Virus record (IMG/VR): IMGVR_UViG_3300020385_000660
Span: 1-64,000 of that record
Source of the DNA: a virus
Strand: one strand, 5' to 3'
Length of the DNA: 64,000 bases
The first letter of the stretch is position 1. Each line of letters starts with the position of its first letter. Below are positions 1 through 63,975 of this stretch, piece by piece. The notes beneath the pieces were generated by a model. The model was not told where the DNA came from and searched no databases. It worked only from the letters and a program-made list of their open reading frames with translations. The translations under genes were made by a program, and so were the position numbers.

Positions 1-1729
1 CAACTTTAACAGGCAGCTGTTTATCAGCTAAATACTCATAAATGTATACAAGTGCAAGCTTAGTCATGTCTGCTGAGGCACCTTGAATTGGTGTATTCTT
101 GGATGCACGCTCAATACTACTAAGCTCCATCGATGCTGATTCATCTGACCATATCTTTGGAAACCAGTTAACAAACCAACGACGCCGGTTGAACGGTGGA
201 AAGGTTTTAATGTAACCATATTGTTTACCAAAGCTGGCTAGCTTCTCAAGAAATCCTTTGATGTTAGGGAACGCACTGAAGTAATCTTCAATGAGTTGCT
301 TTGCATCATCCTTGGATATGTTGAGAGTATCAGCAAGCTTGTTAGGACCCATACCATATGCGAGACCAAAGTTAATAGTCTTTACATTAGTACGCAGTTT
401 CTTATGCTTTGGACAATTACATTTACTTTTATTAACTAAGTAAGAGCAATCATATTCAGCACTAAAGTCCCATTCATTCTTGTATACAAGCTGTGCACAG
501 GTTGAGTGTAAGTCCTGACCATCTTCTAATGCTTTCATCCACACGGGATCTTGGCTACCAAAAGCTATGACATTCAGTTCTTGGGAAGCATAATCAGCAC
601 TTACAAACGACCAATCATTTGGAGCAGTAAAGCAGTTTCTAAATGCATTGTCTGCAGGTATTTGCTGCATGTTAGGCTTAGAGCTGCTTACACGACCGGT
701 GTCAAGTATTTGATTGAAACTAGTGTGTATCTTACCATCTTTGTTAATATTCTTTAAGAAAGCTTCACCATAGCTTGTAGCTATCTTCATCTTTTCTTTG
801 TATTTAACATAATCATTGATAAGAGGATACTTGTTTCTATACTTGTACATGGCTTTACCATTTACATTTTCAAGTTTAGGTATAATACATTGAAACACAT
901 CAAGCACTTGCTTTGGTGAGTCCCAATTGACATCTACTTGTTTCTCAACAGTGTCAAACAAATCACCTTGAATATACGTTGGTATAAACTTTTGCATACG
1001 ATGGTCTTCAACCACATATTGATTGAGGACATCTTGCAAGAGTTCAGCATCATAGTATGATTTCTTACTAAGGTTAATCCATTTGTCACGATCAAGAGAA
1101 ATACCGTTAAATTCTATGTCAGCAAATGCTAACACAGCACGGTTCTCTAGTTCTACAACATTTTTAAGCTTGTTAACAATGATAGGTGCTCGTTGCTTTT
1201 CATGTATCTGAATAAGATACTGAACATCTTTAGCACCATAAACAATTTGACTTGGTGTAAATCGTTTATTTATACCACCTATAAAAGATGATTGTACATT
1301 TTTATTAAGATCAATGTTGAGATAACGTTTAACAGTATTTTTAAGACTGTTACTGAGTTCTTTACCACAGTTTATAACTTTTTCTGTAAGCATAGTATCA
1401 TACACATTTGAGCATTTGATACCGCAGTTGTAACGGATAAAGTTAAGATCAAATTTAGCGTTGTGAAATATCTTAAGTATGTTTGGTGATTCTAAAATAT
1501 CTTTAAACACTACTAATGGATAATCACGCACATCTATAACATATTGATGAGTATCATCACCAATTTGAAACATAGTCATGTCATCACGCACAAAATTAAG
1601 ACCGGTGGTTTCTGTATCTACAGCAAGAATATTTTTGCTTTTACAGTAATTAACGGCATCTTCGATAGTGGCTTCAAAATACAAGTCACTATCAAACATG
1701 TCGTCATTATAAGTTACAAAATATATCAT
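1..1729 (-). CDS. DNA polymerase, family A, with 3'-5' exonuclease (partial)
   Basis: Replicative DNA polymerase, truncated by the window edge after 576 codons. I translated it from the ATG at 1729-1727. The N-terminal DnaQ-like proofreading domain shows Exo I DTETTGL (D38, E40), Exo II FHNAKFDL and Exo III YGAKD. The polymerase domain shows motif A as SADYASQELNV near residue 380 (D and the steric-gate E kept, central residues unusual) and motif B as RTNVKTINFGLAYGM near residue 445. Downstream lies the conserved NTPIQGASADMTK stretch. Motif C (HDE) lies beyond base 1. No 5'-3' exonuclease domain precedes it. The start overlaps the stop of the upstream gene as ATGA, so translation is probably coupled. 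crAss-like phages carry either family A or family B polymerases; this one is clearly family A. Confidence 0.95.
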   Translation of the reverse strand, partial: MIYFVTYNDDMFDSDLYFEATIEDAVNYCKSKNILAVDTETTGLNFVRDDMTMFQIGDDTHQYVIDVRDYPLVVFKDILESPNILKIFHNAKFDLNFIRYNCGIKCSNVYDTMLTEKVINCGKELSNSLKNTVKRYLNIDLNKNVQSSFIGGINKRFTPSQIVYGAKDVQYLIQIHEKQRAPIIVNKLKNVVELENRAVLAFADIEFNGISLDRDKWINLSKKSYYDAELLQDVLNQYVVEDHRMQKFIPTYIQGDLFDTVEKQVDVNWDSPKQVLDVFQCIIPKLENVNGKAMYKYRNKYPLINDYVKYKEKMKIATSYGEAFLKNINKDGKIHTSFNQILDTGRVSSSKPNMQQIPADNAFRNCFTAPNDWSFVSADYASQELNVIAFGSQDPVWMKALEDGQDLHSTCAQLVYKNEWDFSAEYDCSYLVNKSKCNCPKHKKLRTNVKTINFGLAYGMGPNKLADTLNISKDDAKQLIEDYFSAFPNIKGFLEKLASFGKQYGYIKTFPPFNRRRWFVNWFPKIWSDESASMELSSIERASKNTPIQGASADMTKLALVYIYEYLADKQLPVKV

Positions 1730-1983
1730 AGTTGATCTGGTTGTTTAGTAAGATGCTTGTCATAATCAGGCATTGCTTTATTATCTACAAATGTAATAAC
1801 ACTTCTAGCATATACTGTATCAATCCAAGTATTCTCCCACTTAAACTTATCAACATTGTTTTCTTCTGCTGTTTCTGCAATTGCTTTAAATGCATAATAG
1901 CTATTATCTACTATCATTGCATAAATCCATTTCATATGTGACATAATAAAAAGAAACGCAGGGAAGCTTCCACTCTTCCCCAC
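1726..1983 (-). CDS. Small protein of unknown function coupled to the DNA polymerase
   Basis: Unrecognised small protein directly upstream of the polymerase gene, with a 4-base ATGA overlap at its end. The longest frame starts at a GTG (1983) and gives 85 residues. The ATG at 1944 (residue 14, beginning MSHMKWIYAM) is an equally plausible start and would give 72 residues. The sequence is mixed hydrophilic with aromatic positions and shows no signal peptide, Cys pair or convincing membrane helix. Its coupling to the polymerase suggests a replication accessory role, but this is only inference from position. Confidence 0.6.
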   Translation of the reverse strand: MGKSGSFPAFLFIMSHMKWIYAMIVDNSYYAFKAIAETAEENNVDKFKWENTWIDTVYARSVITFVDNKAMPDYDKHLTKQPDQL

Positions 1984-2640: not shown

Positions 2641-2683
2641 TGAAGCACATGAGAATCGAACTCATGTTTATACCATATGCTTC
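2641..2683 (-). ncRNA. Anticodon-less tRNA-like element A
   Basis: On the minus strand a 7-bp acceptor-like stem (GAAGCAT pairing with GTGCTTC, one G-U) encloses an 11-nt connector, ATGGTATAAAC, and a perfect T-arm: 5-bp stem ATGAG/CTCAT with loop TTCGATT. A discriminator-like A follows. The D stem and anticodon arm are absent. The GG in the connector sits where D-loop G18-G19 would meet the T-loop. Element B at 3596-3634 has the same plan. No full-length tRNA alternative was found upstream. Confidence 0.5.
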
Positions 2684-3318
2684 AGGTTTATAATACTCTG
2701 AGATTACAAGTATTATTGATGTGTCTTTGATAGAATTATAACCCGCCAAGGTCTTTCTCTCTTTTATCCACACTCTTTTGAAGTGTATCACATCAGTGAC
2801 GGTTAGTATAGTTAACCACTCTTATCGATAATACCTACTCACACAATAATAAATCTATAATAGAGTAGCGAACCCTAAAACAAATGTTTCTTGTGCGAAC
2901 ACCTATACCTTGCGAGTATAAAATGCACTACATTCACCTAAGTGTGTAGTATTAGTCACCTTTCAGCACTATCGTCCACTGTCTTTTGCTTTTTTTTAAG
3001 TTGTTAGTTAATCAACTGCCAATTATTGGGGGCGTGCAGCGGAAATTGCTATCATCCTTTTGAGATGTAAATACAACACGAGCCCATATGATTTGTCAAA
3101 TCACGATAAGTCAAGACATCCTTAAGTTTAAGGACACCTATATTATTAAACAATACCCATACATAGCCTGACGGACTAATTCTGAACTTGTTCTACAGAT
3201 TATTCTTATTGGGATTACTCCCTCAACATTAGTTGGCACTAATGTCACACATTCACTCAGGCGATAGCCCTCTGTTTCAATGTGATATTCTGCTTGCGTA
3301 GATTGACCATAAATGGCA

Positions 3319-3350
3319 ACACATCAAGAGTATTTCTCCCCTTGATGTGT
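3319..3350. repeat. Perfect 10-bp inverted repeat
   Basis: ACACATCAAG at 3319-3328 pairs exactly with CTTGATGTGT at 3341-3350 across a 12-nt loop. No U-run follows on either strand, so it does not look like a simple intrinsic terminator. It may be an RNA-processing or RNA-stability hairpin. Confidence 0.7.
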
Positions 3351-3595
3351 CTTTCACACATTGCTGTGCTTATCGGGCCACGCCCCATACTTTTAATAAT
3401 TTCTCAGCTGCACGAAAAACATAAATAGATAAATTGGCTATGCACTAGCAAACTTATCTAATATTTTCCTATCAACTCTCGCCAGAGAACGCATGCTATT
3501 TCTCCTTTTTTTTATTCTATTTCTTTCTTAACTCGCAAGCTAAGAAATACTCAATAGTGCAAAAGCCTTGCAGACGTCATACTGCAGCCCTCAGA

Positions 3596-3634
3596 AGAGT
3601 AGCAGGAATCGAACCTGCACTAACCATTTACTCT
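3596..3634 (-). ncRNA. Anticodon-less tRNA-like element B
   Basis: On the minus strand a 6-bp acceptor-like stem (AGAGTA with TACTCT) encloses the 10-nt connector AATGGTTAGT and a perfect T-arm: GCAGG/CCTGC with loop TTCGATT. The T-loop is identical to that of element A and the connector again carries ATGGT. The 5' strand of the acceptor overlaps the stop codon of the 46-codon zinc-finger gene just upstream, so the element would sit exactly at the 3' end of that message. Confidence 0.5.
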
Positions 3635-3768
3635 ATTACAATTATATATCCTAATACATCGTTGACGTGATCACAATTTGCACATTCTGCAAGTGTATCA
3701 TGACCAACGTGTTCAAGAGTATGACCTTTATCGTGGCCACACTCTGAACAGTTTATTTTAGCTATCAT
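3628..3768 (-). CDS. 46-residue zinc-finger-like miniprotein
   Basis: Short gene, translated by hand. It begins MIAKINCSECGHDKGH and contains two CxxC pairs, CSEC and CANC, about 22 residues apart, with several His residues between. This is the layout of a four-Cys zinc ribbon or small treble-clef finger. It ends YIIVIE at TAA. The start ATG at 3768 overlaps the stop of the preceding 68-residue gene as ATGA, which strongly supports a real, translationally coupled gene. Probable nucleic-acid or protein-binding accessory factor; the exact role is unknown. Confidence 0.75.
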   Translation of the reverse strand: MIAKINCSECGHDKGHTLEHVGHDTLAECANCDHVNDVLGYIIVIE

Positions 3769-3971
3769 TTCTTATTACGTGTAAGTGTTGAAATGATTTT
3801 ATCTAATTTAGCTTTCTCTTTCTTTGCACCATTTGGTTGATTGATTTGTAATGCTTTGCGTATTTGTACATAAGCATCTAATCCATCTTTGTTGATGAAA
3901 GAGTCACGAGCATCTTGCCTGTCTTTGGCAAGAGCTCGTCTTATATCTTTTTTGAATTTACTATGTGCCAT
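3765..3971 (-). CDS. Small basic protein, unknown function
   Basis: A 68-residue, Lys/Arg-rich protein (MAHSKFKKDIRRALAKDRQD start, KIISTLTRNKK end) with predicted helical character and no Cys. The charge pattern suits a nucleic-acid- or RNA-polymerase-binding accessory protein, but no family is recognised. It lies 2 bases downstream of the membrane-protein gene (3974-4285) and overlaps the zinc-finger gene by ATGA, so the three form a small operon. Confidence 0.75.
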   Translation of the reverse strand: MAHSKFKKDIRRALAKDRQDARDSFINKDGLDAYVQIRKALQINQPNGAKKEKAKLDKIISTLTRNKK

Positions 3972-3973
3972 GA

Positions 3974-4285
3974 TTAGTCGTCTTTTGTTAGTCTAGTCCA
4001 TTTAAATTCTAATGTCATAAATGGGATTACAATATGAACTCCTTTTGTGTATTTATTATTTTCAATAGCAATAGCACATCCTAGTATCCAACCACCATTT
4101 ACACTGTGATTAAATCTCCAATTTTGTGTGTGCAATAAATAAATTGCAAGTGCTGATATTAACCAGCCTAACCACAATATTGTACATAATAGTTTATCAG
4201 AACCATCTGATAAGTTTAGTTTTTCTGTCAATATCATAAGAGACAGAGTTAACAATCCAAGAACAATTAAGTTTAGTCTTTTCAT
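3974..4285 (-). CDS. Small membrane protein, two or three TM segments
   Basis: A 103-residue protein. Residues 4-20 (LNLIVLGLLTLSLMIL) and about 33-52 (LLCTILWLGWLISALAIYLL) are convincing membrane helices. A third, weaker hydrophobic stretch (GGWILGCAIAIE) lies near residue 66. The C-terminal tail is polar. No family is recognised. An early phage membrane protein could act in superinfection exclusion or in host membrane modification, but nothing in the sequence decides this. First gene of the three-gene minus-strand unit 4285-3628. Confidence 0.7.
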   Translation of the reverse strand: MKRLNLIVLGLLTLSLMILTEKLNLSDGSDKLLCTILWLGWLISALAIYLLHTQNWRFNHSVNGGWILGCAIAIENNKYTKGVHIVIPFMTLEFKWTRLTKDD

Positions 4286-61000: not shown

Positions 61001-63975
61001 CAGATTATTCTGAGGCGCAAACAAACTTAGCAAATATAGATATACAGTTAGGAAACATTACTGCAACTTTAGAATCTAAACAGGTAGGTAAAACTCTAAC
61101 ATTAAATTTATTAAATAAAGCTTCTAATATTAAGGTTATTGAAAATTCAGCTTTAGTAAAAGAACAAGTTAATCAAGCTGTAGATTTAGTAAATATTGAA
61201 TTAGAGTCTAATCTACAAAAAGCAAATAAAACATTATCAGGATTAAATAGTAAACTAGCTTTATTAACAGAAGCACTAAAAGACCCAACCTCTGTAGAAG
61301 CAGGTCAGACAGAATCTTTACGTGCTGATATTGATATTTTAAATGAAGCGATAGTAGAAGTTAAGCGAACAGTTAGTGAGACAAAAACTAATTTAAAAGT
61401 TCTACAAAGGTTTGAAGGTAAAGTAAGTACTATTACAACTATGCCGCAAGCAGAGCAATTAATGAATAGTATTTATGAGAGCTTATTTAATTTTGATAAA
61501 ATTGGCGAATACAAAGAAGTATATGAGCTAATAAATAAAAGCTCTGTAAAGAGTTTAATTATGACATCGATTGATGGTAAGCCTAGCTTAGATAATGATA
61601 AACTTCAGAGATACGCAGAAATATTAAGAGATGGTAGAGATGTTACTACAGCAATCTTAACAGAGTTTGAGCCTAAGATAGCAGATTTAGAATCTTCTTC
61701 TGCTGCTCTAAAAGAAACTATAGAAAAACTATCTGAAAAAATAAATGAACTTAAACTTGAAGAAGGTAAACTAGTTGATGAATTAGAAGAGACAAAAAAT
61801 CAGTATGAAGAGCAACTAGAAGAAATTGCAAACATAAAAGCTATGTTTAAAGAAGAGCTTCTAAATGTTCAGCGCGGCGTTAATTCTATTGCAGATGTAG
61901 CTTTTTCTTTAAAAGATAATTTATATGCAATTAAAGCTTTAATAGACAGTTATAAAAATCCTAATCTTAAAGAAGAGTCTTTGTCTGGTTACCATGACAC
62001 TAATATGATGGCTCTTACTCCTGATGAATTTTTAAATAAAGTTGGTAACTCTAAAAGCAAAAGCGTATTACACTATAGATCTCCTATAACAAAACACGGG
62101 TTCTTAAAAACTGCAGGCTCTAACGTTGCGTCATTAAAAACTATACAAAGATTAGAAAAGCAAGTAAATGAAGGAACTCCTTTAGATGCTGAGCAGACTA
62201 ATGAGTATAATTTAGCTAAATCTGCAGCAGCGTATTATAAATTTACTTCTGAAAATAATTTTAATACAAGAAAATATAAAGACGGTAAAGGAGACTTTAG
62301 TTTATTATTAGTGAATAGACACAATTTACCTAGTGAGCTAAAATCTGACTTAGTATTTTTTGATGAAGGAAAACATGTATTAGCTCCTGCTACTACTGGA
62401 ACTATAAAGCAAGAGAATTTAGAAGACATTAAAGCAATTGTATTAAATAAAGATGGAGAGCCACATAAAGTAAATGGTGTGATGCTTTATACTTCTATAC
62501 CTACAGCAGAAGTGTTTGAAACAAAACAAACATCTGATGGAAGATCTATTGAGAGATATAAGTACGGGGAGGCCGATCTAATAAGCCCAGTAGAAGAAGA
62601 AATTATTGATGAAGAGGGATACACAAAGACTGTATTTACAGGAGAGCTTACTCCAACAGCTAAAGCTAGAGTTAAAGAGTATACAAAATTACGTACAGAC
62701 CTATTGACTGACCCACAGCCAAAAATACGTAAGATTACTCAGAACAGTTTTGCAATGGTTAACAAAGTGAATGGAGATAATATTGGTAGACCAAGCAAAA
62801 CATTTAAAGGTAATACTTCTAATATTGATTTAAAAGTAAATATGAAATCAGGTTTATCTATATCTGGTAGATCTTATAATTTTAGTGCTGGTACAGTTGT
62901 AGCAGAAGCTGCAGGTAAACCTGTACCAATGTATGGTAATTTTTTAACAGACAAGTACCAAAAAAATGTACTTAATCTTTTAAAGCTGTATGCAGTTAAT
63001 CAAAAGAAATATCAAAACAAAGAAATAGATTATGCACAATCTCAATTAGTTGAGCCTACTAACCCAAACAGTAAAAAAATTACTCATGTTTTACAAAATT
63101 TAGTATTTTTTGGATTAGAAACTCAAAATAGAGGAGAAAGAAAATTCTTTGTGTCATCAGCAGAAGAGAATGGTACAGTTTACTTTGGGGATTTAAAAAT
63201 AGAAACTTCTAAATTATTAGATCCAGGCAATAATAAGGATTTAAATGATGACTTAAAATCTTTTATAGGAAGCCTTAGACATAATGTAAATGCTTACACT
63301 TTAAAAGCAGATCAAGGAGCAAGAGCTAAAGGAAAACAAAAAGGTACTTACGCTGCAGCTAGAAAAGAATACGCTAAAAGAGTAAAGAATAATAAAGAAA
63401 AACTAGATAAATGGGAATTAGCTAATGCGTATAGAAAGTCAAATGCAAAAGTTGAGTATGAAGGATATGTAGAATACACTGTTAATGATGATCTTACTGT
63501 TTCTAAAACTGACTGGGCAAATTACACAGATTATCTATTAGGTGATGGTACTGCTGAGTCTAGAAGATCTATACCTCAAGAAATACCTTTATACTCGTAT
63601 TTAAATGATTATGTGTCAGAAGATAAAAATAAATCTTATAGTACTCCACAGTTCTTAAATACATATTTACAGTATGAAGAAGGGTATGATATAGGTAAAA
63701 TGACTAACTTAGAAGATTTTAAAAAGACAAATACTGATGACACTTCAGATACTGAAACTACTACTGAGACTACTACTAATACTGAGTCTAAACCGCCTGA
63801 AGAGAGTGGTGCAGATATAGGAGGATTAAAAATAATGTCAGTAGATGATTTAGCAGATTTAATGGGAACTAGTGATACAGAAGGGTCTAGTAGTGCAGAT
63901 ATATCTTTAAATGATATATTAGGCTTAGATACTAAGCATGATTCTACTCCAGATGATAACGCAGAATGCATATAA
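58039..63975 (+). CDS. Giant internal virion protein, 1978 residues
   Basis: A 1978-residue protein. Near residues 120-260, hydrophobic Gly/Ala-rich helices (LVSSVGTNILGSTVGLVYGG; DFAQGLSFVIGAVL) could span membranes. The centre has long coiled coils (around 1214-1277, EEGKLVDELEETKNQYEE). The C terminus is Asp/Glu/Thr-rich and disordered. In crAss-like phages this position is taken by very large packaged proteins that precede the virion RNA polymerase; no DxDxD polymerase motif was seen in this frame, so the polymerase, if present, is beyond the window. Confidence 0.75.
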   Translation: MATEEPTLSLSDYLVTPEDITNAQLSGNNMLATPSQVTTQEPNYEMEKLALKKAGTNRTLTDAEKSSGMLNPLYGTKLDGVKVEDYADYIDRPFSFVSDDADELRAANQSTGEKLRYGATKLVSSVGTNILGSTVGLVYGGVAFLEGMINKDSNTATKAFFDNNFQRSLDGVNEWMDNKLPHYYTKEEQEYGFLQSLGTANMWTNDFAQGLSFVIGAVLSEGLTAGRTSSLLKNLAKKSGVKGKDWLKAANKNSDLAVNAVARSKQLQNGLTTIRQLGTGAMYESGVEARHHYDATLEMLIDAHKAEHNNNPPTDQEMAALADIATKSSNAVFAGNMALVGYGNFMQFPKIFGKGLNGTKRAMAGKIKQQIVDKKKIYSEVFKDLSKGQVMTRKAWKLASVPLYEGFVEEGGQKLLDLTGQGSAEEFYLSKRNPAVLDMLGEMLIQTEDSFSDVYGSKEGQKEIGIGLILGALGLPGRVSTRGKDGKLKKKIQMQGGVWDTMRDMKSQQKAISKLRERLEKDPTFLSAFKKNYDTMARATDNQDITDYASIIDNPFISQNAEHDNVFNYLHSRMEAGFEADILDDIQNVREMSAEEFRNAFNYNEANTYSDKELEARRDNIASALEAKLESVKETMDVMDRSFINWSAEQKMAAVHALSVAKDSDMREDDLISRAEEIIGAPLATDVEAPREETDAREQKDTENRLKNIWSRFSKKHMENINNLPETQTVKQRLGIKEFSDPTHLEELFREITINAMNLENQIEELGHNDKIDKYEKDSKLIKLAADKKKLDVRRSQLMKDLNEGLDPNIGGAEQQILDDWKKKDPTGYASSAQEVTQMLKDLRKLRARRHRAINMYNQLLEKRDVGATLFSEGPLLTPPQIRLQQIVQREASENKALFEDDPKLHDLYRRFSDQTIEFEYTKEGDTEPTQYRVFVERKDIEDGNASVLRQMPTPDIIKLSIQKQALEDRKARLESVIKRLADATTTSDYSEAQTNLANIDIQLGNITATLESKQVGKTLTLNLLNKASNIKVIENSALVKEQVNQAVDLVNIELESNLQKANKTLSGLNSKLALLTEALKDPTSVEAGQTESLRADIDILNEAIVEVKRTVSETKTNLKVLQRFEGKVSTITTMPQAEQLMNSIYESLFNFDKIGEYKEVYELINKSSVKSLIMTSIDGKPSLDNDKLQRYAEILRDGRDVTTAILTEFEPKIADLESSSAALKETIEKLSEKINELKLEEGKLVDELEETKNQYEEQLEEIANIKAMFKEELLNVQRGVNSIADVAFSLKDNLYAIKALIDSYKNPNLKEESLSGYHDTNMMALTPDEFLNKVGNSKSKSVLHYRSPITKHGFLKTAGSNVASLKTIQRLEKQVNEGTPLDAEQTNEYNLAKSAAAYYKFTSENNFNTRKYKDGKGDFSLLLVNRHNLPSELKSDLVFFDEGKHVLAPATTGTIKQENLEDIKAIVLNKDGEPHKVNGVMLYTSIPTAEVFETKQTSDGRSIERYKYGEADLISPVEEEIIDEEGYTKTVFTGELTPTAKARVKEYTKLRTDLLTDPQPKIRKITQNSFAMVNKVNGDNIGRPSKTFKGNTSNIDLKVNMKSGLSISGRSYNFSAGTVVAEAAGKPVPMYGNFLTDKYQKNVLNLLKLYAVNQKKYQNKEIDYAQSQLVEPTNPNSKKITHVLQNLVFFGLETQNRGERKFFVSSAEENGTVYFGDLKIETSKLLDPGNNKDLNDDLKSFIGSLRHNVNAYTLKADQGARAKGKQKGTYAAARKEYAKRVKNNKEKLDKWELANAYRKSNAKVEYEGYVEYTVNDDLTVSKTDWANYTDYLLGDGTAESRRSIPQEIPLYSYLNDYVSEDKNKSYSTPQFLNTYLQYEEGYDIGKMTNLEDFKKTNTDDTSDTETTTETTTNTESKPPEESGADIGGLKIMSVDDLADLMGTSDTEGSSSADISLNDILGLDTKHDSTPDDNAECI

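Follow-up and report, generated by a model that had tools for sequence, protein, structure and literature searches.

Why should a phage keep two tRNA-like folds that have neither a D stem nor an anticodon arm, on the same strand and some 900 nt apart? The two folds, referred to here as elements A and B, lie in a window of 64 kb, the whole stretch of DNA that was analysed, which makes up most of a virus record of 64.8 kb. Read 5′ to 3′ on the minus strand, a 46-aa open reading frame (ORF) is followed by element B, an interval of ~900 nt that lacks any substantial ORF, element A, a stem-loop and the gene for a 194-aa protein (Table 1). Element B, AGAGTA-AATGGTTAGT-GCAGG-TTCGATT-CCTGC-TACTCT, is built from a 6-bp acceptor stem, the connector AATGGTTAGT, a 5-bp T stem and the loop TTCGATT. 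Element A, (T)GAAGCAT-ATGGTATAAAC-ATGAG-TTCGATT-CTCAT-GTGCTTC(A), has an acceptor stem of 7-8 bp, the connector ATGGTATAAAC, a 5-bp T stem with the same TTCGATT loop, and the tail CTA.

Table 1. Features of the minus strand around elements A and B, in window coordinates.
Feature	Position	Strand	Basis	Remark
46-aa ORF	3628-3768	minus	ORF list	stop codon overlaps element B
Element B	3596-3634	minus	structure scan and model R1	tRNA mimic lacking an anticodon; 5′ boundary of GOLLD
GOLLD, putative 5′ domain	3087-3595	minus	no substantial minus-strand ORF listed there	
GOLLD RNA, conserved 3′ domain	2695-3086	minus	Rfam RF02032, 223.4 bits, E 6e-62	
Element A	2641-2684	minus	structure scan and model R1	tRNA mimic lacking an anticodon; 3′ boundary of GOLLD
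Stem-loop TGCTAGT...ACTAGCA	2606-2630	minus	sequence comparison	after element A, upstream of the 194-aa protein gene
194-aa protein gene	1996-2580	minus	ORF list	downstream of element A

A preliminary description of this DNA had taken both elements to be real, and the searches bear this out. A scan on structure only (5-bp T stem, loose TTC-type loop, paired acceptor and a connector of 7-16 nt) picked out just A and B in the 64-kb window, both on the minus strand, with nothing on its plus strand and nothing in 10 dinucleotide shuffles of either strand. Both were also recovered by model R1, a covariance model made from the elements of other phages with the window lineage excluded, which scored B at 46.7 bits (3591-3635, E 1.1e-9) and A at 28.8 bits (2637-2684, E 7.6e-5), these E-values being rough. 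The model's third-best match in the window (62747-62805, 16.6 bits, E 0.16) lies in apparent coding sequence and was taken as noise. Element A was detected in this way despite its different connector, which places it outside the reach of the search pattern described below. Because single-sequence folding of A yields one long imperfect hairpin that extends the acceptor, instead of the expected plan, such folding is not decisive here, and we base the assignment of A on the model match together with its perfect conservation in a second record (G021/L148), where 47 of 47 nt are identical. Chance hairpins are ruled out by the shuffles and by covariation, and an ordinary tRNA or tmRNA by ARAGORN, which found 0 tRNAs and no tmRNA in the 64-kb window, for which Rfam likewise gave no tmRNA match. 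With the Rfam tRNA model (RF00005), B reaches 19.7 bits, under the gathering cut-off of 29 bits, and A is not listed.

In both elements the acceptor is stacked on a T stem-loop, as in an AT1-like minihelix, and by their match to model R1 and their covariation both belong to a new family of mini tRNA-like elements, hereafter mini-elements. A seed pattern taken from element B (ATGGTTA, 3-8 nt, GGTTCGATTCC) matched at least 119 stretches of IMG/VR, and among the matches listed mini-elements are present at ~100 viral loci; a stricter pattern, matched by at least 38 viral loci, has 6 matches in 257 Gb of bacterial genomes. Some pattern matches came from ordinary tRNA-Asn genes whose variable region contains the motif, and a sequence filter removed them. 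Since the collections were seeded by patterns, conservation within the patterns is no evidence, and the two T-stem pairs that the search pattern sets carry no evidential weight. The acceptor pairs tell more. In an alignment of 48 elements, with the window lineage excluded and pre-filtered for acceptor pairing, pairing is found in 94.8% of acceptor cells (shuffled: 54.2%, sd 1.6), covariation scores 1.03 (shuffled: 0.20), and all seven acceptor pairs change on both sides. Because of the pre-filtering, the unfiltered set gives the fairer comparison: 85 of the 99 distinct matches among those listed reach an acceptor score of at least 5/7, as against ~11% of controls in which the 5′ and 3′ strands came from different elements. 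The covariation in other phages on which the preliminary description had staked its reading is thus found.

The common plan consists of an acceptor of 6-7 bp, a connector AATGGTTAAT or similar, a 5-bp T stem and a loop of TTCRA type, TTCGATT, and connector variants of the family include AATGGTTA, ACTGGCAGA and AACGGTT. T stem and acceptor together make 11 or 12 positions, and a 7-66 mismatch is common. Both helices are present, as the preliminary description had it, but what is retained goes beyond acceptor and T arm, as the connector resembles a tRNA D loop without its stem: ATGGT matches the D loop of tRNA-Gly, including its GG. None of the 26 distinct actinophage connectors lacks this GG, which we take to be tRNA positions 18-19, even though it was no condition of the scan. 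In tRNA, the GG of the D loop (18-19) touches the T loop.

The interval between A and B contains a GOLLD RNA, which is unannotated and was missed in the earlier reading. The Rfam model is matched over its full length (1-416 of 416) at 223.4 bits, the gathering score being 150 bits. Element A lies 10 nt past the 3′ end of GOLLD and element B on its 5′ side, so that the two bracket a giant noncoding RNA. Since the Rfam model covers the conserved 3′ domain, and a variable 5′ domain is known for GOLLD (PMC12286853), a 5′ domain is expected in the sequence that reaches from there up to element B. The processing of early mRNAs that had initially been suggested is not indicated in the window, where the elements bracket GOLLD, although their relatives in other phages do lie between genes. 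A BLAST search of the 1.1-kb cassette against cultured phages gave nothing; the G021 record has the same B-GOLLD-A order, with a core of B that is identical to the window's and with different surrounding genes.

The start codon of the 194-aa protein gene is ~60 nt downstream of element A, a record that shares the window's gene neighbourhood (L002) encodes a 92% identical protein, and a Pfam search with the 194-aa protein and five small neighbours gave no match. The stem-loop between A and this gene has a counterpart in L002, TGCTGAT...ATCAGCA, in which both sides of the stem are changed. The overlap of element B with a stop codon had been read as a sign of 3′-end processing. The 46-aa ORF shares its N-terminus with a 55-aa gene of L002 and has a different end, so it appears to be a truncated form of that gene, and in the other cassette copy (G021) B stands behind a different gene; the overlap is therefore incidental and not conserved, and this argument had to be given up. 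Further along the minus strand (2-1729), a DNA polymerase I-like protein runs off the window; its closest relatives by tblastn are in crAss-like phages, at ~29-31% identity.

In four other phages a mini-element lies 4-8 nt past GOLLD. As these records had been found via the mini-element and such a sample is biased, we rescanned IMG/VR with a GOLLD-internal pattern that is blind to the element, and obtained 45 distinct GOLLD loci with enough sequence for a census of the boundary. At the site ~10 nt 3′ of GOLLD there is a mini-element in 15 of the 45 loci, a tRNA recognised by ARAGORN, mostly tRNA-Gly, in 14, and an aberrant cloverleaf that ARAGORN misses in another 14, while the site is empty in two loci, which are nearly identical to each other. 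What is conserved at GOLLD ends is thus a tRNA-type fold (43/45), whether or not it is capable of decoding. Ten of the 14 aberrant cloverleaves are tRNA-Gly-like, with a T loop that lacks TTCRA and with AG where the D loop otherwise has GG; in three the D loop carries an insert, and in one the anticodon arm is reduced in size. The loss of TTCRA in the tRNA-Gly-like folds (L163-L203) is coupled with the change from GG to AG, which suggests a different elbow. Upstream, tRNA-Met is found in 27 of the 45 loci, ending 760-1230 nt before the GOLLD-internal pattern. A smaller scan aimed at GOLLDs closer to the window's turned up L158, with no clear tRNA-like element at the 3′ end of its GOLLD relative, L159, with a T arm and a closing acceptor-like stem around a longer insert, and L160, which is the G021 record.

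Where tRNA-Gly occupies the GOLLD 3′ site, its D loop, TAATGGTAG, matches the connector of the mini-elements, which suggests that the connector descends from the tRNA-Gly D loop or has converged on it. The 3′ tail of the mini-elements, moreover, runs discriminator, C74, mostly U/A/G, then A, with C at the C74 position in ~80%, C75 rare and A76 frequent. Real tRNA genes in these loci have C74 in 97%, and the tRNAs of GOLLD phages end in CAA in 87/152 cases and in CCA in 10/152, so that mimics and phage-encoded tRNAs share one grammar of the 3′ tail, with C74 kept and C75 avoided. An association of GOLLD with tRNAs is known: GOLLD has been reported near tRNA islands, with tRNAs within its linker, one member lies downstream of tRNA-Met, and a mycobacterial GOLLD contains a pseudo-tRNA (PMC12286853, PMC6582537). 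The RNA in the window is likewise a GOLLD adjoined by tRNA-type folds, but it has anticodon-less mimics, not tRNAs, at both boundaries, and the census finds the tRNA-type fold at the 3′ boundary systematically.

Most mini-elements are not beside a known large RNA, since an Rfam search of 12 loci, mostly with several elements, found no known family. Away from GOLLD, the elements stand between genes that run in the same direction. Genes at the IMG/VR loci were called by a simple rule for ORFs, and 41 of the 56 distinct non-GOLLD elements have one of at least 40 codons starting within 80 nt downstream in the sense orientation, as against 4 in the antisense orientation; a stop codon upstream together with a start downstream is seen for 34/56 sense, 3/56 antisense and 12% of random positions. 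Mini-elements are carried by Flavobacterium phage FL-1 (48.5 bits), by the crAss-like phage cr53_1, upstream of its DNA primase (45.0 bits), and by Mycobacterium phage Predator (35.5 bits), and the first 50 kb of crAss001 hold no convincing one. That Bacteroidota are among the hosts is suggested by FL-1, by the crAss-like phage and by most of the six matches in bacterial genomes. One record, L017, has six mini-elements in tandem ~150 nt apart (927-1778, minus strand), with low-complexity, A/C-rich spacers and no obvious genes.

Each of the mycobacteriophages Predator, Konstantine, Oaker, Phreeze, Damien and Fowlmouth, the first two being phages of Mycobacterium smegmatis, has 7-8 elements, almost all in the intergenic gaps of one operon, most of whose gaps they fill. 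They typically lie 8-10 nt past a stop codon and 43-54 nt ahead of the next start; CGA follows most of them, and all run directly into a stem-loop predicted at around -6 to -13 kcal/mol. Their stems covary, and none was found in antisense orientation or in shuffles. Konstantine, Oaker, Phreeze and Damien are of one genus and so are not independent cases, while Predator and Fowlmouth come from other genera, and the Fowlmouth elements differ in sequence. Directly upstream of this operon, Predator (L144:34639-35912) has a gap of 1.27 kb with many short direct repeats and no annotated genes.

How might such elements act? What they keep of the tRNA is what RNase P, RNase Z and the CCA enzyme recognise, and what they have lost is the part that the ribosome reads. 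Hairpins consisting of acceptor, T stem and T loop are cut at the canonical site by bacterial (E. coli) RNase P RNA (PMC11143913). We consider it probable that mini-elements are minimal substrates of RNase P and an RNase Z-type enzyme, which punctuate phage transcripts and release GOLLD. The host enzymes that process tRNA ends would read them as places to cut, RNase P at the 5′ side of the acceptor and an RNase Z-type enzyme past position 73. In the window, GOLLD would be freed from a longer transcript, with its 5′ end set by B and its 3′ end by A, giving an RNA of ~910 nt with defined ends; in other phages, the elements would split a polycistronic mRNA between its genes into separate messages, and the downstream message would begin at a fixed point, in many cases with a hairpin. 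In the mycobacteriophages, the stem-loop that follows each element would then form the 5′ terminus of the mRNA downstream, and hairpins at the 5′ ends of mRNAs slow decay.

We infer cleavage, the enzymes involved and GOLLD as the released product from features that comparison of the sequences establishes, namely the structure of the elements, their covariation, their position and the fact that real tRNAs can take their place at the edge of GOLLD. That processing is their main role seems to us a good bet; the enzymes are less certain than the role. The initial proposal of tRNA-mimic processing sites comparable to t-elements therefore gains from the covariation, the tRNA exchange at one site, the tRNA-like tail and the placement at transcript boundaries, and loses the part that concerned early mRNAs. 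On balance we also lean towards a broader statement: tailed phages with hosts in at least the Bacteroidota and Actinomycetota would possess an undescribed family of natural tRNA mimics without an anticodon that turns the tRNA-maturation enzymes of the host into a general machinery for cutting operons and releasing noncoding RNAs.

Several observations count against processing. In G021 an insert between GOLLD and A places A ~80 nt, not 10 nt, from GOLLD, and a tRNA-like element is missing from the 3′ side of GOLLD in L158 and in two of the 45 census loci. Many elements have 11 positions in T stem plus acceptor, where 12 is canonical. If B were cut at its acceptor, the 46-aa ORF would lose its stop codon. 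Finally, the downstream hairpin is weakly enriched outside actinophages (p 0.035), so that a hairpin after every element was rejected as a universal feature.

The elements could instead stay on the upstream RNA as a stable 3′ terminus that takes CCA or blocks exonucleases, for which the tRNA-like ends of plant virus RNAs provide the model. The retained parts are indeed also those that the CCA-adding enzyme reads, C74 is kept and A comes directly after GOLLD, yet elements occur at 5′ boundaries too (B ahead of GOLLD), most elements have a start codon in the next 80 nt, and the hairpin right after the mycobacteriophage elements fits a new 5′ end. We regard 3′ caps as unlikely, while a combined role in capping and cleavage may be compatible with these points. 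A function as DNA, in which the elements are sites for recombination or cassette exchange through which GOLLD or genes are gained and lost, with RNA structure secondary, would explain why L002 has no GOLLD and a single element in the same neighbourhood, why L010 and L120 carry that single element with the same flank, and why the B-GOLLD-A cassette stands in a different gene context in L148. We judge it very unlikely: acceptor sequences vary while their pairing is kept, which DNA homology does not require, the elements are strongly oriented relative to genes, and they are replaced by tRNAs of different sequence. Less probable still are decoys or regulators that bind a tRNA enzyme or the ribosome and, uncut, titrate it or control translation of the next gene; the location upstream of start codons and the six-element array of L017 would suit this, but the regular spacing after stop codons and the presence at both ends of a noncoding RNA fit boundaries better than the control of one gene. 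The least credible reading is that of decayed, functionless tRNA genes. The GOLLD boundary does offer a series from intact tRNA-Gly to reduced forms, and the connector does match a tRNA-Gly D loop, but acceptor and T stems are maintained by compensatory changes in dozens of phages, and several copies occupy consecutive gaps of one operon.

The preferred reading, transcript processing at tRNA mimics, has precedents of several kinds. In mitochondria, tRNAs or tRNA-like folds between genes (tRNA punctuation and t-elements) mark the sites at which polycistronic transcripts are cut. The phage elements are likewise tRNA-like folds between genes, a likeness of position only, but they occur in tailed bacterial phages and have a fixed, reduced plan; by analogy, and with no claim to membership, they would work like mitochondrial tRNA punctuation. 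The tRNA-like domain of tmRNA has a D loop and no D stem, as do the mini-elements, while the window has no tmRNA. AT1-type minimal RNase P substrates keep the same helices as the phage elements, but they are synthetic hairpins, whereas the phage elements are natural, repeated and equipped with an added D-loop-like GG connector. For mascRNA and menRNA, passages of PMC12941219 describe a tRNA-like fold directly 3′ of MALAT1 or NEAT1 and a 3′ end made by tRNA-processing enzymes. A tRNA-like fold likewise follows GOLLD, 10 nt past it in the window and at that boundary in 43/45 GOLLDs overall; those RNAs are mammalian and nuclear, GOLLD is a phage RNA whose processing we infer, and the two are analogues, not homologues. 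A phage RNA cut by RNase P is also on record, the C4 antisense RNA of P1/P7, as cited in PMC11143913; C4 is not known as a repeated boundary element of this plan.

ARAGORN misses mini-elements, they are unannotated in reference phage genomes, and we found no description of them in the open-access literature, so that their novelty is provisional, the original GOLLD report lying outside that scope. If the proposal is true, tRNA folds make the ends of GOLLD, which would explain the long-noted link of giant phage RNAs with tRNA genes, and the free exchange of mini-elements with tRNAs and aberrant cloverleaves would account for the occurrence of GOLLD-type RNAs in tRNA islands and for phage 'tRNAs' that need not decode. 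It suggests that phages, those of Mycobacterium smegmatis included, use a module of ~40 nt, read by essential host enzymes, to split operons. Transcript ends could then be predicted at nucleotide precision, and mini-elements would offer minimal substrates of natural origin for both RNase P and RNase Z.

Two further gene-poor stretches were seen in other records. In L004, a relative without GOLLD for which an Rfam search gave no match, positions 3240-4220 include long gene-poor stretches with stem-forming ends (AGAGTAAG...CTTACTCT) and could be another structured RNA. In Vibrio phage CHOED (L139:549-2043), ~1.5 kb without annotated genes contain a T-arm-like sequence and are possibly an unannotated large RNA.
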